This document shows, piece after piece, positions 4,916 to 59,305 of a DNA stretch of 59,305 bases. Position numbers and translations under genes: made by a program. How positions within the stretch are numbered: position 1 is the first letter of the stretch; each line of letters begins with the position of its first letter. The notes beneath the pieces were generated by a model. That model was given only the letters and a program-made list of their open reading frames with translations, searched no databases and had not been told where the DNA came from. Location of the stretch: contig CAMPET010000241.1 of assembly GCA_946803715.1 (NCBI GenBank), forward strand, positions 47,156-106,460, read 5' to 3'. The DNA comes from Beroe ovata (lineage: Eukaryota; Ctenophora; Nuda; Beroida; Beroidae).

Positions 4916-5100
4916 CGCACTGCAGTAGCTCAGTGGTTAAGGTTTCAGCCAAATCTGCTTCTCCCAATCTGAATCAGAGGACCCGGGTTCGATTCCCGAC
5001 ATGATCATGTTCTATGCTCGGGTAGCCTAGTGGTTTAAGGTTCCAGCTCTATGTGTACTGTACACAGAGGTCACTGGTTCAAGGCCACAGTGCCGCACCA
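4916..5100 (+). repeat. Two adjacent tRNA-like (SINE-head-like) units
   Basis: Unit one (about 4919-4999) has an A-box-like TAGCTCAGTGGTTAAGG and a B-box-like GGTTCGATTCC. Unit two (about 5013-5100) has TAGCCTAGTGGTTTAAGG and GGTTCAAGGCC. Neither folds into a convincing cloverleaf (acceptor and T stems are imperfect), so I call them tRNA-derived elements, not functional tRNA genes. They abut the large palindrome that begins at 5103. Confidence 0.5.
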
Positions 5101-5102
5101 AC

Positions 5103-7456
5103 AAAATATTCGTTGAAGCTGGAGTTTAGCTGAGTGCGCGGCTCAATCTCAATCGCAGGTAAAGGGTCTTCTTGATATTGTAAGCATTTAGCATGCGCGC
5201 GCGTCGAAAATTTACTCAGCTTTGATTGAACTGAGTTCTCATAGTATTGTTCAGTTCACAAGACACTTCAACCAGGTCTCGAGACGTCTATATATCACGG
5301 AGTGTCTCATGTCGCATAGTAGTTTCATAGTATGATCGATAGAGAAGAGTTATAGACCTTATTCAACAATATCACTCGACCAGATCAATGATTTCACAGT
5401 TTTGACGTTCCTGGGACCTCTAAATATCACATAAATAGAGTCCTGGTGCTCTGCTAAGTTCCACAGTGCACTCCTCAACAGCCCAGGACAGTTATTCAAT
5501 GATAAAACAGGGTATCACGACATCTGTGCAACGTTCAGTACGGTAAGGATGATATAAGAACCTCATATTACTCCGTGGACTCTATAAGGGCCTCGGGGAC
5601 CTTATCAATCGATAGAAACTTGAGTCAATTCATGGTTTGACCTTGAGCAACGTGGGAACATATACAGACAAAAGGTTGAGGTCCTGGAACCCTATCTTTA
5701 CATTCAAATTTAACGGGGTCGAAAATTAGAGAAAAAAATCAGATTTTTCCTATTGCTAGTTTTTTGACATTTTTCCTATACAAAGTACATTTTTGAAAAC
5801 ACGCACGGATTTTTTAGAAAAATTGTAGAATTTAGGAAATGTCGATCGGCTTAAATCATAATTTTGAAAATAGGGTTCCAGGGCCCTAACCCTTTATCTG
5901 TACGTGTTCCCACGTTGCTCAAGGTTAGACCATGACTTGACTCAAGTTTCTATCGAGTGATAAGGTCCCTGAGGCCCTTATTGAGTCCACGGAGCAATAT
6001 AAGGTTCTTATATCATCCTTACCGTACTGAACGTTGCACAGATGTCGTGATACCCAGTTTAATCGCTGGATAACCGTCCTGGGCTGTTGATTGTGGCATA
6101 GTAAAGCAACACAGAGCACCAGGACTCTATAACAGTGACTAATAGAGGTCTCAAGCACCATAATTCTGTCACAGAGTGTTGAAACAATGATATAATCGGA
6201 ATAACATGCTTAATATCCGATTGAAAACTCAATTCAACGAATAATCTTCACCTATAAATGATGGAACAGGCAATTACTACGTGTATCACATAGGTAGGAG
6301 CTGCCTCATCACTAAATGCGCTATTTAGAGTCGATAAAACATGATTTTTCATCCTTATTCAATGATCTCATCAGGCTTTATCAGTGATTTCACAGTTTTA
6401 ACGTTCCTGGGACCACTAAATATCATACAAATAGAGTCCTGGTGCTCTGTTAAGTTCCACAGTCCTCCCCTTAACCGACCAGGACCGTTATTCAACGATA
6501 AAAAGAGGTATCATGACATCTGTGCAACGTTCAGTACGGTAAGGATGATATAAGAACCTTATATTACTCCGTGGACTCTATAAGGGCCTCAGGGACCTTA
6601 TCAATCGATAGAAACTTGAGTCAAGTCATGGTCTAACCTTGAACAACGTGGGAACACGCACAGATAAAGGGTTAGGGCCCTGGGACCCTATTTTCAAAAT
6701 TGAGATTTAAGCCGATTGACATTTCTTAAATTCTACAAATTTTCTAAAAAATCCGTGCGTGTTTTCAAAAATGTACTTTGCATAGGAAAAATTTCAAAAA
6801 ACTAGCAATAGGAAAAATCTTTTTTTCACTCTACCTTCGACCCCGGTAAATTTGAATGTTAAGATAGGGTTCCAGGACCTCAACCATTTGTCTGAACATG
6901 TTCCCACGTTGTTCAAAGTAAGACCATGACTTGACTCAAGTTTCTATCGAGTGATAAGGTCCCTGAGGCCCTTATAGAGTCCACGGAGTAATATAAGGTT
7001 CTCATATCATCCTTACCGTACTGAACGTTGCACAGATGTCATGATACCCTGATTTATCATTGAATAACTGTCCTGGGCTGTTGAGGAGTGCACTGTGGAA
7101 CTTAGCAGAGCACCAGGACTCTATTTATGTGATATTTAGAGGTCTCAGGAACGTCAGAACTGTGAAATCATTGATCTGGTCGAGTGATATTGTTGAATAA
7201 GGTCTATAACTCTTCTCTATCGATCATACTATGAAACTACTATGCGACATGAGACACTCCGTGATATATAGACGTCTCGAGACCTGGTTGAAGTGTCTTG
7301 TGAACTGAACAATACTATGAGAACTCAGTTCAATCAAAGCTGAGTAAATTTTCGACGCGCGCGCATGCTAAATGCTTACAATATGAAGAAGAACCTTTAC
7401 CTGCGATTGAGATTGAGCCGCGCACTCAGCTAAACTCCAGCTTCAACGAATATTTT
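5103..7456. mobile_element. Giant nested palindrome (foldback-type element)
   Basis: The left arm 5103-6180 is the reverse complement of 6350-7456, with a central non-matching loop of about 170 bp. Each arm is itself an inverted repeat, centred near 5782 and near 6778, so the inner module appears four times in alternating orientation. Outer ends pair as ATATTCGTTGAAGC with GCTTCAACGAATAT; mismatches are scattered, so this is not a simple sequencing echo. No transposase frame is present. The right end coincides with a single N at 7457, so part of the structure could reflect scaffolding across a hairpin. Confidence 0.7.
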
Positions 7457-8175: not shown

Positions 8176-8749
8176 GTTAGCATTTATCATGCGCGTCTCA
8201 GTTTCAATTGAGGTATTTGTGAAGAATTACGAATTCAGAGTTACGAACCTATGAATTCCTCAGTGTCAAATGGATTGTGAACAGAGAAATACCTTTCTTC
8301 AATGAACAAAATCTATAATTTTTATACGCAGACATTGATTCTCATTCAAATTAGTCGATCATGCGTATTTCAAAGTTGAAAAGCGGGAAATTGAAGATAC
8401 ATTTGTTACAAATTCACGCATTTCAGCCTTTGATATTCAACGTTTCACATGTTAAGCAGGGAAATCAGGGCAGTTATCGTCATTCTTGAGTAAAATTCGA
8501 TGCAAATTCGAGATATTCATAGATTGTTCATAGATCTACGTTCGACGGAGTCAGCACATCCCACAATTGATAAGTCAAACCAAGGTTAAAAATGTATTAT
8601 CGGTCGTATGAGGAGGCGAGATGAGTGTAGGAGAGGATCAAGATGACAAATTTAACCGCAATCTGGCTTCTACTGTCCCTCTACCTGAAAATAAACGAAT
8701 TCTTTCGTAACGCAGACTATTTAAAGCACGATCAAGCTAATAATCATAC

Positions 8750-9950
8750 ATAAACTATTCCAGAGTGTCTTACCTTTACTTTGGAATTTCGAACCAAATC
8801 GGCTACTTCCATGGATTGTTAGAGCATTATAGTGACGGAGAGAGTTGTTGTAGGATCTTGATATCTGATAGGGAAATGAGCCATTGAGCAGGATTTTTTA
8901 GTTTCAAATGAAATCTTGTGGTGTGAAGTTAGAAGAGTCTGAGGCATCAATTTTTGTTGCTAATGACGAGTGATTTGTACATGCTTTCTTTGTATATTCA
9001 ATTACTTTTCTGGTTTCAAATGAAATTCTGTACACATGAACTGAGAAAGAGCCTAGCATTAATACTAATTCTAAATCGAAAATGTGTATGTATTCTCACG
9101 AGAGGGAATGAGTGTGTGGTCACGCAGCAAGTATATTGAAGCCTGGTTTGTAGAGTGTGTCAGGCAAGGAATAGTAAAGTGTGTATGGTCAATCTACATT
9201 AAAAATGAGCTAGAAGTAGGGTGTTAACTCTATTTTATATTCAGCTATTTTACATTCAGCTATGTAGTGCATTGTGAGTCAATCTGTGAAGCAAAACAGA
9301 CAACTTGACCATCTGAGCAGTTCATAATGAGTATTCTATCATGTTCAAACTATCCCAGAGTGTCTTACTAGTGGAATTTCGAGCAAGAACTACTAAATTC
9401 TATTAGAGCATCAGCGATGAGAAGACTTGTTGTAAGATCTTGGAATGGTATGAGGGAGAAATGATTTAGGGAGCAGGATATTTTCCCGTTTTAGGGTGTA
9501 ACTAACTACCTGATATTCTGGCCAAACATAATTAAAGAAACAGCCTAGAATTTCAATTCTTCATAAATCCAGAAGGTGCGTGTTTTCTCATTCTTGAACA
9601 TATAACAGAAGAGAGGCAACGTGTGGGCCAATTGATGCCACACAATAAACATATGGATGTCTATTCTATAGATCAATGTCATAAAAAGACTACAGACTAG
9701 GAGAGTGAGTCAATCTTCACGAGAAAATGAGCTACAAGTAGGGGGTTAGCTCAATCAATGTCATGATTCGAGCTATTTAGTGACTTTTGGGTCAATCTGT
9801 GAAACAAAACAGTCTACTTGACCCAAAAACAGCTACAAATAATTTTTCTATCATACACAAACTATCCCAGAATGTTCTAACTATGGAATTTCGAGTGAGA
9901 ACTTTTACTACACATGTAACATTATAGTATCATATGAATAGATAAATGAA
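8750..9950. repeat. Diverged tandem repeats, ~0.5 kb period
   Basis: The block around CCAGAGTGTCTTAC...GGAATTTCGA appears near 8762, 9352 and (shorter) 9866. A block with CAATCTGTGAAGCAAAACAG appears near 9280 and, as CAATCTGTGAAACAAAACAG, near 9792. Order is conserved, so this is an old tandem duplication. No coding frame is supported. Confidence 0.6.
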
Positions 9951-10137
9951 TATGACTTATTGCCTTCAAGCAACTCTGTTCTGACACTTCACTCTTCATA
10001 AATTTAATTCATTGAACCATAAATTTAATTCAGAATCATTTGTTATAGCATCACTCATCAGGGTTGTTATAGCATCTGTGTTGTTATAGCATCAGTTTAA
10101 AAGTGAAACAACTACTGCCTGCATCGTCCGAATTTCT

Positions 10138-16900: not shown

Positions 16901-19900
16901 TTTATTGTCCGCCCTAGGGATTACTGGTCAAAAGGCGGCACTCTCCTTCCAACAGATATGCCGCGTGACCATGTCTCGAGCTTAGTTTGCCGTACAATAA
17001 CTGTCGCTATCCTAGCCACTTATAATGATGTAGATTTTGATTGCAAAACGGCACTTAAATCAATTTCAGTCTATTCGAATTAAATCTCGATAGATTTTCT
17101 CAGAATAATCAATAATAGCTCAACCTTCTTCTCCCCTTACACCAGCTTCACAATTCCCCCAGCCCCAAAAGATCTCAACATCTCAACTCATGGTGGCAGT
17201 ACATCTGGGACGATCAGCCGTTTTCCAGCAGACAATGACGAAGAGCACCAAAACACGGCTCAGCAAGTGTGACGAGAAGAAGATGTCTATGATGCACTAT
17301 GCGGCGATGAACGATCATAGCAACCTGATATGTGAGTGTTGTAAGAATTCGGCAGCTTTTGAGTGAGATTTTGGCGTTTAATCGGTTCACTCTTGATGAT
17401 GAAAGTCATAAGATATGCTAACTCACTGCCAAGTTTGATTACGATATTCCCTTGGGACAAACCTATTACTCATCTATCGGATTGGTCACTACAACTCTAT
17501 CCATATCGAATTTCCCCATAATTCGCGCTCACCATCAAATTTCCCAATAATTATCCCGCACTGCGCGCCCACCATAACCTGCACGTGCCCTGGTTGCGCG
17601 CATCTGCTCCTTCATAATACACGTGTGTGTGCTCCTTCATAATACACGTTTATACTGTGTGTGTGTGTGTGTGTGTGCTCCTTCATAATACACGTGTGTC
17701 TTTCAGGTGACATGGTACGGACCTGGGGATGTGACGTTAACGTGAGGTGGGAGGGTGAGGCACGCACACACGGGCCCTCACCACTTCATATTGCCATACA
17801 GCACGGCGCCATCGAGTGTCTGATATGTCTGCTGAGCTACAACGCGCAGCTGAACTTGGTTAGTGAAGTACACCCCATCATTCACTCCCTCCTTCCATCC
17901 ATCTCTCCCCCTTCCTGGTATTAGTCAATGGTGTTCTAGAGTCTAGAGAGGTATGAGAAGGGTAGGAATCTGCTGCGCAGGACCCGAGGGCACTGGTTCT
18001 TCAATTCTTGTACTGGACACACAGTGACTGAGTTGATCCTTGTTTCTGAGAAAAGAATAGTGTGTGACACTCACTGACTTTCCCACTTTCTCTAGTCTCT
18101 ATGAATGATGATTAATTGGTCCGGGACTCACTATTCACTATGCAGTGAATTTATGAATAAAACAAACATCATGGCGCATTATACCAAATATCCGAATACT
18201 GAATAAAACCTATTATAAGGATTTTGCGGCACGGCCTATTATGGCCTTAAAATTTTTTCATTTATAGAGTCACGGTAATTGGAATTCGCGCGTCTGGTCC
18301 TGCCATATACGCACGTAAATAGAGAGAGAGCTATAGCTTGTCCGCTCGACAGGCAAATTGCAGATGTGGGCGTTCAAATTGGTATCTGACGTAGGAGGGG
18401 TTGACAATCTGGCATGGTATATTTCTATCACTTAAAACAATTGAAGAATAAAGTATGGGAAATAGTGAAATTGTCTTCCTATAAAGGAAGCTAATATTTC
18501 GGCGGAATTGAAGTGAGTAGCTCACGTTAAATCTGCTATGATAATTGATTGTGGCGATCTAAACTCTATATAAGTGGACCACTACTAAAACCACTACTCC
18601 TTCATAAACAACCACTGACAACTATTTTGCAGGAAGATGACAAAGGCTGGCTTGCAATTCACACTGCTTCCTATTATAATCAACATCTTATCGCTACACT
18701 CCTGCTCAAGAGAAATCCAGAGTTCATTAACGAGCCCACTAGGAACAAGGGTGAGAGGGCACTAAAAATAGTGGTTGTTAAATTAGAGGGTCACTCTTAT
18801 AAAAGTGATGAAAATCGGATGGAAAAGGGGGTCGAAAAGAGGGTTTTCTATGAGTTAGGAATTACCAAACCTCAAAAAGCGTTATATAAGCTCTCTTCTA
18901 GATGATGATATATTCCCTATTCTCATTCCCCAGAGAAATTGACACCACTCCTGCTGGCGTGTAGTAGCGGAGCTCTTGACACGGTTGAGAGGTTACTATC
19001 ACTGGGCGCATCTCCCACCACACTAACAACTTCTGACCGTGGTGTCATCCATCTGGCAGCGTTACATCGACATGTCAAGGTAGCTTAGTGATAAAGAGCT
19101 TAGTGATAAAGAGGGGATACTCATTCATGAACGAGCCCAAATATATGATTCAATGAAGCATTTTGATTCATTCATGAACGAGGAACTGCAGTTTTTCCTC
19201 TGGAATATTTTAATGGGATAAAACTCCGTTTTTAAATGAAACGAGACGTAGATTTTTATGTTTGTCACAAGTTTCGAATTGATAATTTCTACTGATTACT
19301 GCTACCTACCACGAAGCGTAATTGACGTCAATTATAATTAGCCACCAACGATGAAAGCGAATAGAAATTGGTTAGGCAAATAAAATAACACTCACAAATA
19401 CTTTATTGACCTTCTCTTGGTTATTGCCTTAACCATGTTATTATTAAACCACAAACATTCAACCAGCCTGTATAATCATCACATTAATCTCCTATCAACT
19501 CCACAATCATCACGTTAACCACCAATTAACTCCACAATCATCACGTTAACCACCAATTAGCTCCACAATCATCACGTTAACCACTAATTAAGTACCAATT
19601 AACACCTTGGTTCAGGTAATTGAGTTGTTTATCAAGAAGAGCTATCCTGACCTCGCGGTATGGGATATTCTGGTAAAGATGTTACGTAGTGACGAGGTGA
19701 AGGAGCGGTATCATGCCGTGGTGGCCCTGGATAGACTCACTAAAAACGGTGGGTTTTCCTGGGATTCACCGGTGGGTTTTCGGGGATTCACCGGTGAGTT
19801 TTCCGTGATTCACCGGTTAATCATCTTACCGTAATAATTTCACAGGCAACTTTCTGAAAATCACTATGCCACGTTACATTCTTACATTGACCGAAAAGCG

Positions 19901-22900
19901 GAAATTTTGGACGATAATCAAAGTTCAACCTATGGGTTAACAACTTTTAACGTTGTAGTTTAGTCGAAGTGTAGTCTGGGTAGCGAACGTGACGAACTTT
20001 GAACTGGGTAAATGGTTTGGTTAAATCGTACAGACAGTGGATTTATTGTCCAGTTTTTTATTTGTTCCTTAAGAACGTCTTCCATTCAGCATGGAAAAAT
20101 GTCGTGAAAAATAATTCTAGCTATCTGATATTGTACTCCAAACCCGCACAACTCTTACACCACACCCGCACACCCAGACTCCACACCCGCTCAACTCTAA
20201 CTGCACACCCGCACAACTCCACACCCGCGCAACTCAAACCCGCACAACTCTACAGGAGAAAACTGGCAGGAATTGCTCGATGCGGGTGCGGTCCCCGCCC
20301 TAGTTGACATCCTCAAACCAGACCCTCGGAAACTTCCAGAAGAGGAAAACAGTGTAGCGAGAATGGACCTTAAAATGCAAACATCAACCGTCATAAAGTT
20401 AGTCATGTAGTATTATATATACAGAGCTGATGGATATGGTCAAATCTGAGTTGAAAAAAGAAGACTTTTTGCTTTGTAGTTGATTATACTGGAGAATCTT
20501 TAAATGCATTGCTTTTGGTGCCAATTGCCGTAGGATAGCGCGTTGATATCGATCACAAAGCGTGCTAGGATAAGAAATTGTAGAAAAACCAGCACAGGCA
20601 ATATTAGGATGACACGATTTATTTTGAGTCAATGTGTCTAGAAAAACTATTACTACTATAAACACAGACTGTATATCACACTTACACAGGAATCTATCGT
20701 GCGAAGATGACGTGAGACGTGCTATCGCAGCTACCAACGCCCTCAAAACATTCATTGGACTGCTTTCCTTGCCTCATGATGTGATACAATCCAATGCTGC
20801 GACCATCATATCCGATGTGTGCCAGGTAAAGTGTGACTAATCATGGGAGCTCTGGTCATTATAACCAATCAAATACAACCTACGGATATCGGCCAACCGA
20901 AAACCCTAAAATCTGTATCAACCAATCACATCCTCCCAAATCTGTGTCAACCAATCACATCCTCCCAAATCTGTGTCAACCAATCACATCCTCCCAAATC
21001 TATATCAACCAATCACAGGCTGCTAAATAGCTATCAACCAATCACAGCCTGTTATATCTCTATCAATTCTCTCATCAGGTGAACGATAACGCCCAGAAGG
21101 TGGCAAGTGAAGGTGGCATTGCGCCTCTTATCGTACTCCTGAAGAGCTGGATGCCGTCTGTCCTCACTTCAGCCATGAGATCACTCTCACAGCTAGGTAC
21201 TATTATTATTACTACAGGATACAGTAGGCAACAACTTTGATGAATTTTTGTTGCTCCTGTTTGAAAATCTAAATCAGAGATCGATGTGTCAATTCTGAGT
21301 TTGATGATTTCTACTTTGAATAATTAATTTAGAAATAATATGGTCGTGTATCCAAGAATGATCCTCAAACCGATTGCACAAATTCACAAAGTTTATAAAG
21401 ACAGCGAAATCGAAATGAAATCTTTGAAGTTCATCGTACGAAGAATGATAAAAGTTACTCGATTCATTTCTTCCAGAGCAATTGTTTAAAATCAGAAAAC
21501 TGCCATACCAATGCACGGCAAAATATGATAACAATTTGAAACTATTGCCGAACAGTTTTACCTAAAGTTTACTAACTAAAAACAGTGAGCACACCAGCGT
21601 TTTATGTTTAGTTAAGCGAGTCTCTAAAAGCAGCAGTCCCTTCGACCGACCTCTGCCCTGTGATAGGACCATTCCAATCCCGGCATTATCCCCTATCAGC
21701 TCGAATATATATATTTGCACTTATATCAGAACATCTGACTCTCCTAATTCATGCCGAAAAGAAGATTTCCCTGTTCTTGGTTAGTCTCGAAGTTTCTTGT
21801 CCATCCCTTGCACTGCTTCTCTCCTGGTCGACAAGGTCTCATGGATTGCCGTTTGACCACCTCCACATTCTCTACTGAACCTGGAAATGGGAGAGAAATT
21901 AGAAATTCTGTGGCAAATGTTTAGTTTAGTATAAGTACCATTGTATTATATCACTACTTATGATAAATCACTAAGAAGGGAATAGAAAGCAACTTGAAAT
22001 TTACTTTGTTGAAATAACCTACCCTGCTCATCCGCATTGTTGATCGCAGCTGCACTGGAATGCTCGACTCCGACAGCGAAAACCACACACACCACCACTA
22101 AAACTGCCGATGAAACCATGGTAACGATTGTATATGGAAAGAGGGCGGTATGGAGAGGGATAACAGAGAAACTCTAGTTCGTTCACTGGCGATAGAGTGT
22201 CTGACCCGTGCTTTTATACCCAACACACACACACTCTCTCTCTCCCGACCATTCACCATTGGACGACATCATCGCTATATGTAACGCGCTATAATCAGTC
22301 CCTCTCCATCGCACTCTCTCTCTCTCTCTCACCCCCTTATATTATGCAGCTCTCTTTCTGCATCTCTTTCTGCATCTCTTCGCTCTCTTTCTAACTCTCT
22401 CTCCCTCTAACCCCCTATAATATGGTACTCTCTTTCTGCCTCTCTTTCTCTCCACATCCTCGAAATTCTTTCTACCTGGATGTCCATTATGCCACAAAGC
22501 GCGCGGACTCAGTCCAATCTTATGGGTGATATAGGTACTAGAGTACTAGGTCCGGCACGAATAGTTGTAATTAACGGCCTTAATAACACACGAATTATAA
22601 TATAGATCATTTGAGTGCTGTCCCCGAAATTGCTTCTACACCGCGCCGCTCAAAATTGAAATTTAACTATCTAGTATTTATTTTACGTAACGTGCCTACT
22701 ATCACCAACTTTAGTATTATCTTAGCGATATTCTAATCTCAAAATAATCTGCGTCTCCTAAAAGAAGTATTATAAATTCGTATTTGAAACGTACTGATGG
22801 ATGAAAATGCAATCTCAGATTCCCTTGCTATAGATAAAATTTTCCTCCGTTCAGAATTGAAGGATTTCGATTTCGGAAGAGAAATAGTGAAGCAAGACTG

Positions 22901-25900
22901 GATGAGTAAATTTTGGTAATTTTTTTGGTAAAATTTCTACAAATCCTCACTTGTCGAAATCCTAACGTTTTTACCGTAAAAACGTTAGGATTTCGACACG
23001 CGTATCATTCGAAGATTGATTTGAACGAAAAGGAGGACGATACCTATTAAGGATTTAAGGAGAAGAATGTATTCTTACTCCAGCATGCCCTTGAAATAGG
23101 CTCAAGTTTTAATCGTTCACATTTTTCTCTGATTGATGTTGAGGAAAGAAAAAAAAGGCATCCGGGTTCGTTGCAATTCATGCTATGCATTGAAATAGCG
23201 TTGATGAAAATATTGATGAGAGCTCAGTCAACTCAGCTATTGTTTCTTCAAAGGTACATAGAAATGAGAAGAATGGTGCGTGCAGCAGTACTTGTTTCGC
23301 TTGAGGAGGGAGAATCTATTCAGTGAAATTATTTTCTCAGTGCAGCAGCAGCTGCTGATGAGGGTGCCATATGAGAAGAAAATATGTATTGCAAAATTTA
23401 TAGAATAAGAAAGGGGGTTATAAAAGTAAAGTGCTTTGCTTTCACGAGATAAGGATCAAGATAGGCCGGGATTCTTGCCAACTCGAAGACTGAATGAAAT
23501 TTAATTCGCTTCGAGAATGATATGCTTTTGTGTTTGATGATCTGAAGAAAATATTATCATATCAAATAAGCGTATCGCTTAAATCGAATTTAGTATTGAT
23601 GATTACTCATTATGATCGATTACTCATTTAAATCATTATTTCAGGCGCAAATTACGAAAACAATAAAGATGAGATTGCGAAAAGTGGGGGTTTGGAACCA
23701 CTTGTGTCGCTATTAGACAACAGTGACGCCAAGGTCAACATTCTCTCACATTAAATGATACCCATCCAGCAACATTTCCCTACCACTTTGACACCAATTC
23801 TCACTTGATACCAACATCCATTGTCTATTGACACCACTCTCTCTCTCTTTCTCTCTGACGCCGCCTCTTCCTTGACACCACTCTCCCTTGACACAACTTC
23901 TCCCTTGACACCACTCTTCCTAGACACTACTTCTCCCTTGACACCACTCTCCCTTGACACGACTTCTCCCTTGACACGATTTCTCCTTTGACACGACTTC
24001 TCCCATGAAACTTCCCCCTTCTCAGCAGCATATCCTTGACACCACTTTGTAACCAGGTGCAAGCAGAAGCAGCCAACGCTCTGAATGTTGTTTGCCGGGA
24101 AAGTGTCAACAACCAGAACTTCATCATTTCTATCGGAGGTATACCACCCTTGGTCAAGCTGGTCCAATCTACAAACATAGAGGTCAGTACCATCACTGAG
24201 ACTCGATGCTATAATGATTCAGTCTCGAGATTTGGTGGTTATGATAGTACGGACTGGGGAGGCGGGTATTGCAAGAATTTGGGATCGCACCATGTTACCA
24301 TGATACCATGTTACCAAGTTACCATGTTGAATAGTGCATGTCAAAGCTATGGAAATATCAGAAATTTCTTGCCTGGAATGTCCTGGCTTTTTAACATGTA
24401 CCTAATCAATGTATTGGGAGATAACCAGTCACTTTACTGTAAGCCGTTATCGAATTCGATACTTCATAAGTTGCCATGGATGCAGCCTTACTCAATCATC
24501 AGATGAGAGCTTGTATCAGTGTAGCAGCATCAACCAGCTTACCTACCAGTTCTTTAGATTCTCGTTATTTCGGTTGAATGCTAAGTTTTTGCACCGATAG
24601 TAACTGATGGATTACAATCTTCGTGGGATCCCTCCTAGAATTAGTTTCAACGAATCCACGGTTTGTGTCTACAACTATATAACTACTGATGGATCCCTTG
24701 TTGAATTCCGCGTGAATTAACTATTAAATATTAACCAACACCGAAGGCAATACTGAATACCTACCATTTATACCTATTCCTCAAATCGCCCGTTGACTAT
24801 GAAAATAAGATTTGACTCCATAACGATTCGCGGAATTTCGGAGAACTTTAACATTCACAACTCGAAATATTGGGATTGAATTTTATGTTGTCAACAGTAC
24901 GAGAGAGGGATTTACTATTGTGATTATATTCTTGTGAAATATAGAGCTAGTCTGTTGTGAGGTGCCTATAATTTTCCTTACCACTGGGTCATAAAACTTT
25001 NCCTCAATGGCGATGTCCAAGTCCGGGAGGGGGCTTATTAAATATTAACCAACACCGAAGGCAATACTGAATACCTACCATTTATACCTATTCCTCAAGT
25101 CGCGCGTTGACTAGGAAAATAAGATTTGACTCCATAACGATTCGCGGAATTTCGGAGAACTTTAACATTCACAGCTCGAAATATTGGGATTGAATTTTTA
25201 TGTTTTCAACAGTACGAGAGAGGGATTTACTATCGTGATCATATTCTTGTGAAATATAGAGTTAGTCTTTTGTGAGGTACCTATAATTTTCCTTACCACT
25301 GGGTCATAAAACTTTAAACTTTTAAAGTCTGAAAAAAGGTTCTGGTTTTTTATGGTGCACTGCCACTTACCATTGTCAACATGACTTACATCAGAGCTTC
25401 TGAAAAGGGGGAGGGGAGGGGCGAGAAGGCGACGTGCTCTTCTGCAAAAATAACTCATTACAAACACCTCCCATGTAGCTCCTTACTTATTATTAATGGA
25501 CGATGAGTCATAGTCCGTGACGTGGTCCAAGATAAGGGAGCCGTCACATCTGTCATCATCTGTCATATTTAACACAGTGACCTCTGTTTATCCATATTTG
25601 CAGGCGGTTGGAACACCGCAACCAGTTTAAGTTATACACTTCCTCACTGCACACGGGTTTAAATCTCAAACATGATCGTAATGAGAAGTGTTGCGATACG
25701 TTTAATAAAACTCCCTTGGGACAAATGTTTCAATTCAGGTACAAGTTAGCGCAGCTGGTGCCCTGAGATCCCTTGCCCAGTCTAACAGTGTGTCACAAGG
25801 CAGGATTGCTGATTTAGGGGGTATCAACCCCCTTATCAGACTCCTCAAGTCAAATCCTCGGAATTTAGATGTGAGTTGTCAGACTTTCTAGGAAATATCA

Positions 25901-28900: not shown

Positions 28901-31003
28901 TTCGTCGGGCAAATTACTCGATATTTGACGATCAATACTCAATCTGCCGCTACTACTTAATCAATCGTAGCTACTACTACTGCTAAATCACTCGCAGGTG
29001 AAATCCAATACGAACAGTTCATACAGTTCCTCACTTCCCCAGACCAAGAGGAGCAAGGTCATGCAGCTTTCCAGGTGAGAATTCCCTCTTAATTTCCTCT
29101 AAATTCCCTCTAAATTTGCTCTGAATTCCCTCTTAATTTCCTCTGAATTTCCTCTAAATTTGGTCTCGATTTACTTTAAGTTCCCTCTAAATTTCCTTTC
29201 TATTAATAACTCTGGTCATTTGAGTTACATTGCGGTTGGAACCGAGTTTTAAATCCATAGATTTTGTGGTTTTATAACCACTACCACACGTGCAACGCGG
29301 CGTTTGTTCTGTACACGTGCGTTACCAGGTTGTTATCTTGGCACGTGTAACTGAACCACGTGCCTTACCAGGTGGTCATCTTGGCACGTGTCATGACGGG
29401 TGAAGATCACGTGATTATCATGGCCCGTGGGATAGAGATACTGTACGAGTTGCTACAGAGTGAGGATGAATTGATACAGGAGTTGGCTGCCAACAACATC
29501 GCTTCTCTGTCACACACACGTGCAGGCAAGTGTCTGGGATCACATTGTCACGTGAACATAATTCTATAGGGTTCTCTAATCTCTACCATTGCTTGGCCAT
29601 GTGATAACATAAATATCTCTGTATATGTTGACTGGCCACTTCCTCTAAAGACAAATTATTGACCACCAAAAGGATATTATAAAACACTCATCACACACTT
29701 CATATCACACTTTTACTCCACTTATCACGCCCGTTGATCACACATATCACACCCGTCGATCACACACATCACACTCTCTAATCACCCCAGGAATACCCGC
29801 TGCCCTGGTAACGGTCGGTGCCATGGAAACGCTCATCACCCTCCTTAACTCACCTGCGGAATTGGTGAGGAGCTCAGCTGCCACAGCGGTAGGGTACATG
29901 ACATACAACAGGGGTGCCATGAGGATACTGCTCACTGCATGTAGGAGGTAACATTTTCATCCTTACTTCTGATTACTTACGCATGATTACTTTGATTGCT
30001 CTCTTAATTAACTTATGATTCCCGATAATTTTTAACCAATTCATCTGATTTACGCTTTTTGGAACCGATTTTGTAGTGCTATTTCCGAACATTTCCGATG
30101 AATTCGAACATCTCATACCCTTCCTAGGAATCCAGATCTGTTCCAGCAACTGTTAGAAAACTTGGGAACTGGAAAGATTTCCGATGTTTTCATCAGAGAG
30201 TGGGAATATTGTCTGACAGTTGGCCTCCCCTCGCAATCGTTAGTGTAGTTCGCTCGGTCGTTTTTTGCTTTGATTTCTATCGATGATCTCGGTCCTTGGT
30301 TTGAATAAAATGACCGAGAAATGTTCATACATAGTGCAATTCTCACCGTGACATAACGAATATTTTATATTGTGTATTTCACAGCGTTCATTTGGTACCA
30401 ATCGAGTTGGAAAGGAAGATGGTTGATGTTGGCGACAACTCCCAGTCTACAATGATGAATCAACTGAAAACAGTCACTGGAACAATCGTGAGTAAGAGTG
30501 GCGTCAAAGTTGTGTAAATTGGTGTCAAGGTTGTGTAAAGTGGTGTCAAGGTTATGTTAAGTGGTGTCAGCGTCAAGTTAGTATGCTTCCAAGAAAACAG
30601 ACTGGTGTCAGGAAATAACAATATCAGGGTAGAGTGGTGTCAGCGAGTATGGTGTCAAGGATCCGGTGTTTAAGAGTGGTGTCAACTAAAGTGTCAATCA
30701 GTTAGAAATTGCTGATCTCAAGATTGTCCCTCTATCGGGCACAATGTCACAAAATTTATCACCTTATTGCAGCGCGCGCGGGCGCCGAACTGAAATATCG
30801 CAACGCAATTTCCGCAGTTGCTATGTGCAGCTTTTGCTACACGCGCGTTCCCAGACATCAACCTGTGGACCAGGAGATCCCCACGCCTAAAATTGTCTGC
30901 ATTTCAGGAATCGCCGACGTATGGCACAACTATTACGGAGGATATGTTGGACGGTTCTAGTACACACAGATATACATCTGCTTCGTCTGTGATGATGCAA
31001 TGA
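10993..31003 (+). CDS. ANKAR: ANKAR-like ankyrin and armadillo repeat protein, complete
   Basis: Thirty-five exons were joined by splice signals and phase; they sum to 4,266 nt, i.e. 1,421 residues plus stop, close to vertebrate ANKAR (about 1,430). The order is also that of ANKAR: a unique N-terminal half (exons 1-13), ankyrin repeats (14-17), a long armadillo array (18-34) and a short Ser/Thr-rich tail. The start ATG at 10993 is the first in frame and opens exon 1. No signal peptide or membrane segment is seen, so a cytosolic or nuclear protein is expected. The function of ANKAR is poorly known; ARM and ankyrin arrays are protein-binding scaffolds. The intron at 29526 has a GC donor (GCAAGT). 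A small antisense gene lies in the intron at 21197-23644. Exon coordinates are in the three block entries. Confidence 0.93.
13158..13200 (+). repeat. AGTGGTGTCA repeats just after an ANKAR donor
   Basis: The decamer AGTGGTGTCA occurs at 13165-13174 and 13185-13194, within 40 bp of the donor at 13158. The same decamer follows the donor at 13732 (13735-13744), and variants fill 13735-13880. Confidence 0.6.
14973..16252 (+). other. ANKAR intron 11, no gene seen
   Basis: A 1.28 kb intron with no supported exon on either strand. It contains a run of CAGCAACC/TAGCAACC motifs (about 15317-15420) ending in the near-palindrome GTTGCTTAGCAAC at 15387-15399. Confidence 0.5.
17163..19079 (+). other. ANKAR: ANKAR ankyrin repeats, exons 14-17
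   Basis: Exons 17163-17331, 17707-17858, 18633-18750, 18934-19079. Ankyrin signatures appear in series: KKMSMMHYAAMNDHSNLI, GPSPLHIAIQHGAIECLICL, GWLAIHTASYYNQHLIATLL, LTPLLLACSSGALDTVERLL and GVIHLAALHRHVK, i.e. about five repeats with the T/S-PLHxA and LL landmarks. The acceptor of exon 14 is the second AG (17161-17162); using the earlier one breaks the frame. Confidence 0.88.
17640..17706 (+). repeat. GT microsatellite and CTCCTTCATAATACACGT repeats
   Basis: A CTCCTTCATAATACACGT unit occurs three times (about 17607-17697) around a GT run, directly before the acceptor of the exon at 17707. Confidence 0.7.
19470..19600 (+). repeat. 31-bp minisatellite before an ANKAR acceptor
   Basis: Units containing CTCCACAATCATCACGTTAA are repeated three to four times, ending about 15 bp before the acceptor of exon 19616-19748. 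Confidence 0.7.
19748..19815 (+). repeat. Tandem repeat carrying copies of a splice donor
   Basis: A 22-23 bp unit beginning CGGTGGGTTTTC starts at the last exon base and donor of exon 19616-19748 and recurs about three times (CGGTGGGTTTTC, CGGTGGGTTTTC, CGGTGAGTTTTC). Each copy is a possible donor, and the third (GTGAGT) is the closest to consensus. Confidence 0.75.
20904..21060 (+). repeat. ~29-bp minisatellite with a CCAATCA core
   Basis: About five to six copies of a unit with ATCAACCAATCACATCCTCC run up to the polypyrimidine tract of the exon at 21079. Each copy contains CCAAT. Late copies are diverged. Confidence 0.75.
21744..22119 (-). CDS. Small secreted peptide precursor nested antisense in an ANKAR intron
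   Basis: Two exons on the minus strand, 22119-22023 and 21880-21744, joined by a canonical GT-AG intron at phase 1, predict 77 residues. The ATG sits in a strong context (ACCATGG). Residues 1-17 are a typical signal peptide (MVSSAVLVVVCVVFAVG). After an acidic spacer comes a dibasic K42-R43 followed by Gln44, a layout used for prohormone-convertase cleavage with pyroglutamate formation. The predicted mature 34-residue peptide has exactly two Cys (49 and 56) enclosing RPGEKQ, so one disulfide ring is possible. The promoter entry supports transcription. I recognise no family. No poly(A) signal was identified. The gene lies wholly in the intron 21197-23644, opposite to ANKAR. A chance small frame is the alternative; signal peptide, splice signals, Kozak context and TATA together argue against it. 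Confidence 0.6.
22183..22262 (-). promoter_or_regulatory. TATA/CCAAT promoter of the nested peptide gene
   Basis: On the minus strand GGTATAAAAG lies at 22220-22211, with CCAAT at 22262-22258 about 40 bp upstream. A start site near 22185 is expected, giving a 5' leader of about 65 nt before the ATG at 22119. Further upstream (22300-22440) the minus strand is GAGA-rich. Confidence 0.6.
22952..22998. repeat. Perfect 22-bp hairpin
   Basis: Left arm 22952-22973 (TGTCGAAATCCTAACGTTTTTA cut to its first 20 bases: TGTCGAAATCCTAACGTTTT) and right arm 22977-22998 are perfect reverse complements with a 3-nt loop (CCG). It lies in the same ANKAR intron as the peptide gene. The loop is too short for a standard pre-miRNA. 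Confidence 0.8.
24722..25316. repeat. Duplicated segment around an N: probable unmerged alleles
   Basis: 24722-25000 is repeated with a few differences at about 25035-25316. A single N at 25001 and about 34 unrelated bases separate the copies. No exon is involved. The N and SNP-like differences suggest two haplotype contig ends placed in tandem. Confidence 0.75.
26507..26613 (+). repeat. 11-bp minisatellite at a splice donor
   Basis: About nine copies of GTCTGGTAACA begin within five bases of the donor of exon 26340-26506 (GTTAGTCTGG). Each copy holds GGTAAC, itself donor-like. Confidence 0.85.
27855..28997 (+). other. ANKAR intron, no gene seen
   Basis: An intron of 1.14 kb. The 78-codon open frame at 28612-28848 has no splice support, domain or signal and is considered chance. 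Confidence 0.5.
29326..29395 (+). repeat. Tandemly duplicated splice acceptor
   Basis: TTACCAGGTTGTTATCTTGG (about 29324-29343) is followed 39 bp later by TTACCAGGTGGTCATCTTGG (about 29365-29384). The second is the acceptor and first codons of exon 29372-29525. The upstream copy is a decoy acceptor whose frame soon meets a stop (TAACTGA). Confidence 0.75.
30488..30690 (+). repeat. GGTGTCA minisatellite at a splice donor
   Basis: Starting about 15 bp after the donor at 30488, GTGGTGTCAAGGTTGTGTAA-like units recur, with AGTGGTGTCA again at 30539, 30560, 30634 and 30676 (approximate). Confidence 0.75.

Positions 31004-32761: not shown

Positions 32762-59305
<26,544 letters not shown>

Follow-up and report, generated by a model that had tools for sequence, protein, structure and literature searches.

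A candidate gene for a secreted ring peptide on the antisense strand of an ankyrin/Arm-repeat gene intron

Annotation easily overlooks small secreted peptides that evolve fast, and even more so genes that lie antisense within others. An initial annotation of the 59,305-nt stretch of DNA analysed here (the window) proposed such a gene on the minus strand of an intron, which raises the question of whether the locus is a real gene and whether its product would be processed to a peptide. The two small exons, described as being in the right phase with GT-AG ends, proved correct to the base, and the joined minus-strand frame translates to the 77 residues given for the precursor, MVSSAVLVVVCVVFAVGVEHSSAAAINNADEQGSVENVEVVKRQSMRPCRPGEKQCKGWTRNFETNQEQGNLLFGMN (Table 1). 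The translation also bears out the proposed layout: an acidic spacer, KR followed by Gln, and a tail of 34 residues that begins QSMRPCRPGEKQCKGW and contains two cysteines in the arrangement C-RPGEKQ-C. The start codon is the ATG at 22119 (minus), where the ACCATGG context is seen as claimed. The stop-to-stop frame of exon 1 starts at 22173, so an in-frame stop lies upstream of this ATG, and there is no ATG between the TATA element and the start codon. Use of an alternative acceptor, with the exon starting from 21907, keeps the frame and adds nine residues. The promoter elements lie at the distances that had been called proper, TATAAAA at −31 and CCAAT at −75, with an Inr-like CCAGTG at +1; an Inr-like match at about the same spacing accompanies 5 of the 96 TATAAAR sites in a 250-kb set of real sequence. 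Downstream of the gene, no AATAAA or ATTAAA is found in 644 nt. One of these hexamers lies within 300 nt of 6 of 19 training open reading frames (ORFs) and in 20.6% of random 300-nt segments, and polyadenylation signals are uninformative for the peptide gene.

Table 1. Elements of the putative peptide gene and of its host in window coordinates; a slash marks an exon–intron border.
Feature	Position	Strand	Remarks
CCAAT box	22258..22262	−	begins 75 nt upstream of the predicted transcription start
TATAAAA	22212..22218	−	first T at −31 relative to the predicted transcription start
Inr-like CCAGTG	22184..22189	−	inferred transcription start, A at 22187
Predicted 5′ UTR		−	68 nt from the inferred start site A 22187, without ATG
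Coding exon 1	22023..22119 (97 nt)	−	signal-peptide-like residues 1 to ~25 and first part of the acidic spacer
Intron	21881..22022 (142 bp)	−	CAG/GTAGGT to TTTCCAG/G
Possible branch point TTCTAAT	inside 21881..22022	−	located by eye in the 142-bp intron
Second in-frame acceptor (CACAG/AATTTC) to main acceptor	21881..21907 (27 bp)	−	
Coding exon 2, including TAG stop	21744..21880	−	remainder of the spacer, KR and tail
KR, residues 42–43, then Gln	21849..21854	−	candidate convertase site, cleavage inferred
Predicted mature peptide, 34 residues	21747..21848	−	C49-RPGEKQ-C56, ring inferred
Host exon, Arm repeat	21079..21196	+	
Host intron	21197..23644 (2,448 bp)	+	between Arm-repeat exons
Host exon, Arm repeat	23645..23733	+	
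Next host exon, Arm repeat	24057..24182	+	

The gene had been placed antisense in an intron of ANKAR. Its nesting between Arm-repeat exons of the plus strand holds, as the three host exons join into an uninterrupted series of Arm repeats that scores 66.1 bits with Pfam Arm. The peptide region was also considered as host coding sequence and rejected as such, because the flanking exons join into Arm repeats without loss. Further plus-strand domain matches comprise an Ank upstream, within 17643-17921 (21.4 bits, just over the cut-off of 21.1), and an Arm downstream, within 29649-29948 (24 bits, just over the cut-off of 20.6), together with Arm matches below cut-off at 21031-21237 (20.3 bits) and 24009-24503 (16 bits) and an Ank_2 below cut-off at 18549-18902 (16.5 bits). 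With the pieces on one strand, the order of domains makes ANKAR a reasonable, if provisional, name for the host.

The N-terminus of the precursor passes a crude test of hydrophobicity combined with the −3/−1 rule, by which signal peptides were judged and which repeats also pass (L014 of the sequence set and 51482 on the plus strand of the window). The DNA coding for its hydrophobic stretch is GT-rich. Elsewhere in the window, a 15-bp minisatellite at 51481-51546 (+) gives rise to a hydrophobic repeat mimicking a signal peptide. The KR upstream of the peptide (residues 42-43) is the sole dibasic site of the precursor, and its P4 residue is Val. On reading the 77 residues, the peptide is present once; its tail carries a charge of about +2 by manual count and terminates in LLFGMN before the stop, with no amidation signal (Gly-basic) at the peptide end. 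Exon 2 was also modelled from its sequence alone, but the predicted structure was of poor quality (mean pLDDT 61.3) and was set aside.

Codon usage was scored with a model built from 20 long, uncurated ORFs (25,437 nt, including one GT-repeat ORF and two near-identical copies) and each test compared the score with those of 4,000 noncoding segments free of stops. Null segments equalled or beat the score of exon 1 in 2.4% of cases, that of exon 2 in 19.9% and that of the tail alone in 29.0%; when only synonymous choice was considered, the null reached the score in 11.3%, 26.3% and 30.2% of cases, respectively. Exon 1 looks coding, with a score typical of coding sequence and a signal that is partly amino-acid composition. 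Exon 2 does not stand out: its score falls where coding and null overlap, and the stretch scores 1.48 in the coding frame and 1.63 and 1.51 in two other frames, both of which contain stops. Codon statistics fit coding, but they are weak evidence and far from proof.

To gauge how often chance produces such a model, we counted strong-context starts whose frame has an N-terminus resembling a signal peptide and runs over two exons joined at consensus splice sites. These rules were set after the gene was seen and the window was drawn from a scan, so the resulting figures are not p-values; a genome-wide scan also gives chance models more opportunities. With a TATA element required ahead of the first ATG, the 249,765 real bases (in which 3,305 window bases count twice, through part of L007 and all of L008) yielded one two-exon start, which is the peptide gene, and one single-exon start, in L014, which a GT repeat produces. 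In 75.6 Mb of order-4 Markov sequence there were three two-exon starts and 13 of any kind, which corresponds to 0.01 two-exon models expected per 250 kb. Without the TATA requirement, nine starts of any kind were found in the real set, and the two that span two exons are the peptide gene and the minisatellite artefact at 51482 (+). The matching simulation (58.1 Mb) produced 52 two-exon starts, or 0.22 expected per 250 kb, three of them with a Cys pair as well as a dibasic site; a further 125-kb simulated piece happened to contain one two-exon start. We also simulated 22,027 introns modelled on the composition of the host intron (order 2 for 10,167 and order 3 for 11,860): none held a two-exon model with TATA, 16 held one without it, and a dibasic site together with a Cys pair was counted three times. 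Reversed real sequence contained no two-exon model. The features of the peptide gene are thus rarely matched by simulated sequence.

Searches for relatives covered the genome, proteins, structures and domain families. Among first-look candidates, the ones that were scored, no second copy was found in the genome at E<=10, the single hit (n=1) being the gene itself; with this single copy, we discarded both a detectable paralogue and an origin from a repeat. Against 5.8 billion proteins, the precursor drew four candidates, none at E<=10, and the exon 2 product had no homologue. Pattern matches in viral contigs (37) and in bacterial and archaeal genomes (269) included no confirmed case, and an animal gene is not expected in either. 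The precursor had no match in the PDB, two in Pfam that were both far under cut-off (13.8 of 25.4 bits; 11.5 of 27 bits), and none in NCBIfam, which is built for bacterial and archaeal proteins. All this is consistent with the original statement that the pattern belongs to no known family. The titles and abstracts examined from the neuropeptide, ctenophore-peptide and toxin literature contained nothing similar, and a DNA pattern for GGNPWG plus a basic residue, the end of one ctenophore peptide, had no match in the genome. No relative in which the peptide frame might be compared turned up in these searches.

A second gene of the same window allows a comparison. At 46526-47893 (+), a single open frame of 456 residues encodes a galactose-3-O-sulfotransferase domain (PF06990, 140 bits). 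The four best database relatives of this Gal3ST-like protein share 54-67% identity with it, organism-labelled matches share 25-31%, with no annelid among those listed, and ten ENA records at the top of its 47 matches share 37-67%, so the protein database probably includes some related animals. The absence of a relative of the peptide is compatible with rapid evolution, with short ORFs being missing and with there being no gene.

The assembly comprises 77.8 Mb in 534 contigs, and the GC content of the window is ~42%; PMC11184263 gives 91.6 Mb and 41.97% GC for the Beroe ovata genome. In profile searches of the genome, innexins gave 14 matches, 13 of them over cut-off, and convertase domains were represented by P_proprotein matches on three contigs, three in all and each over cut-off. 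COX1 was not found in the genome, and neither zf-C4 (the nuclear-receptor DNA-binding domain) nor Hormone_recep had a match there in searches run without a positive control. Ctenophores are not known to have the nuclear-receptor DNA-binding domain; Hormone_recep is expected in a ctenophore. We take a ctenophore to be the likeliest source: innexins combined with no match to the DNA-binding domain, the GC content of the window and the small genomes of the group point to one, but the missing Hormone_recep match and the unmatched pattern for a ctenophore peptide do not. A sponge was set aside in view of the innexins, which are not known from sponges. The window further contains a papain-family cysteine protease exon at 57362-57946 (−; PF00112, 180 bits) and a SOUL heme-binding domain exon at 54044-54421 (+; PF04832, 37.3 bits), upstream of which lies a secreted-looking frame at 53284-53574 (+) with no Pfam match. 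The stretches 34395-34796 and ~35348-35672 (both −) are nearly identical coding sequence by translation; the second starts at a one-base gap at 35348, and the pair stems either from duplication in the recent past or from an error of assembly. Elsewhere in the sequence set, L021 holds tandem long ORFs at ~5061-6648 and 8370-9957 (−) that are identical over their first 70 listed residues and that we take to resemble carotenoid oxygenases.

We conclude that the host intron quite likely contains a two-exon orphan gene that codes for protein. The arguments are the exact frame across two exons and their consensus splice sites, the canonical spacing of CCAAT, TATA and Inr followed by a first ATG in strong context, the outcome of the simulations with TATA (no simulated intron, and three models in 75.6 Mb) and the codon score of exon 1. 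Its single copy in the genome indicates that it is not a detected repeat. The reading we favour, to which we assign a probability of roughly 0.55, is that of a real lineage-restricted gene whose product would be processed at KR to one ring peptide; the three P_proprotein matches also count in its favour. Under this reading, the gene's own TATA promoter would drive a spliced transcript antisense to the ankyrin/Arm-repeat host, and the 77-residue preproprotein would enter the secretory pathway by its signal peptide. A proprotein convertase may then cut after KR, releasing one 34-residue peptide with a single predicted disulfide ring, C-x6-C, whose N-terminal Gln could cyclise, probably to pyroglutamate. 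The released peptide would act as an extracellular signal or effector; a signalling peptide of regulated secretion is our first guess, and a defence or prey-directed peptide our second. Several observations weigh against this reading: neither homologue nor paralogue of the peptide came to light in the searches, although Gal3ST-like relatives reach 67% identity in the same database; the codon scores of exon 2 and the tail are unremarkable; neither polyadenylation hexamer occurs within 644 nt downstream; the DNA behind the hydrophobic stretch is GT-rich; and repeats elsewhere in the set yield false signal peptides.

The same evidence for a gene, from frame, promoter and simulated introns, would equally suit a small secreted protein that is left uncut at KR. 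Once rid of its signal peptide, such a protein would have ~52 residues and one disulfide, and could be, for example, a component of mucus, matrix or defence. That KR is the only dibasic site and has Val at P4, that there is no amidation signal and that the peptide occurs in one copy are in keeping with this alternative. Yet an acidic spacer, a KR right before Gln and the position of both tail cysteines after KR are prohormone-like, and we regard an uncut protein as unlikely. A chance model without any gene, in which a promoter-like run meets open frames in a GA/GT-rich intron, strikes us as rather improbable. It would agree with the protein, viral and bacterial/archaeal searches, from which no frame conservation emerged, with the unremarkable codon usage of exon 2 and with the false signal peptides that repeats give elsewhere in the set. 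Moreover, the three simulated TATA models arose in an amount of sequence close to that of the whole genome, the window came from a scan, and the combination of dibasic site and Cys pair recurred in both the Markov models and the simulated introns. Against chance stand the low expectation per 250 kb, the empty result of the local simulations with TATA and the absence of two-exon models from reversed real sequence; features outside the counting rules, namely the spacing of Inr and of CCAAT and the codon score of exon 1, fit too. A real antisense transcript with no meaningful protein, a regulatory or neutral RNA antisense to the host, would account for the well-placed promoter elements and the weak codon evidence in exon 2. 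It would require neither a signal peptide nor a frame-keeping intron nor an open exon 2, and we consider it very improbable.

If the gene is real and translated, an orphan ring peptide would join the peptide set of an animal with perhaps poorly known signalling. If the model is due to chance, it illustrates how convincing chance models in GT/GA-rich introns can look. A bolder proposal goes further: an early-branching animal, possibly a ctenophore, might signal by a single-copy peptide family, so far unrecognised, that carries a disulfide ring and a pyroglutamate cap, is encoded by a small antisense gene nested in an intron and is unlike the amidated peptides of the phylum. We hold this proposal to be doubtful. 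The ctenophore neuropeptide survey of Hayakawa et al. 2022 (PMC9525235) focuses on short amidated peptides, and its main text uses neither "cysteine" nor "disulfide".

How the putative precursor compares with known systems depends on the family chosen. It resembles animal prohormone precursors in its layout and its convertase-type KR, with P_proprotein domains present in the genome, but differs in having no amidation signal, no repeated peptides and no homologue found. Single-copy prohormone precursors of animals combine a signal peptide, an acidic spacer, a dibasic site and one peptide. With the allatostatin-C/somatostatin type it shares the N-terminal Gln and a six-residue ring; its ring sequence RPGEKQ differs from the core motif of that family, and a 21-residue tail extends past the ring, whereas the family's peptides end with the second Cys or shortly beyond it. 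Orphan genes for small secreted precursors are commonplace in animals. Cysteine-containing toxins and antimicrobial peptides are unlike the candidate, which has two tail cysteines only, a charge of ~ +2 and no family match above cut-off, but like it they combine a signal peptide, an acidic pro-region, a dibasic site and a basic Cys tail.
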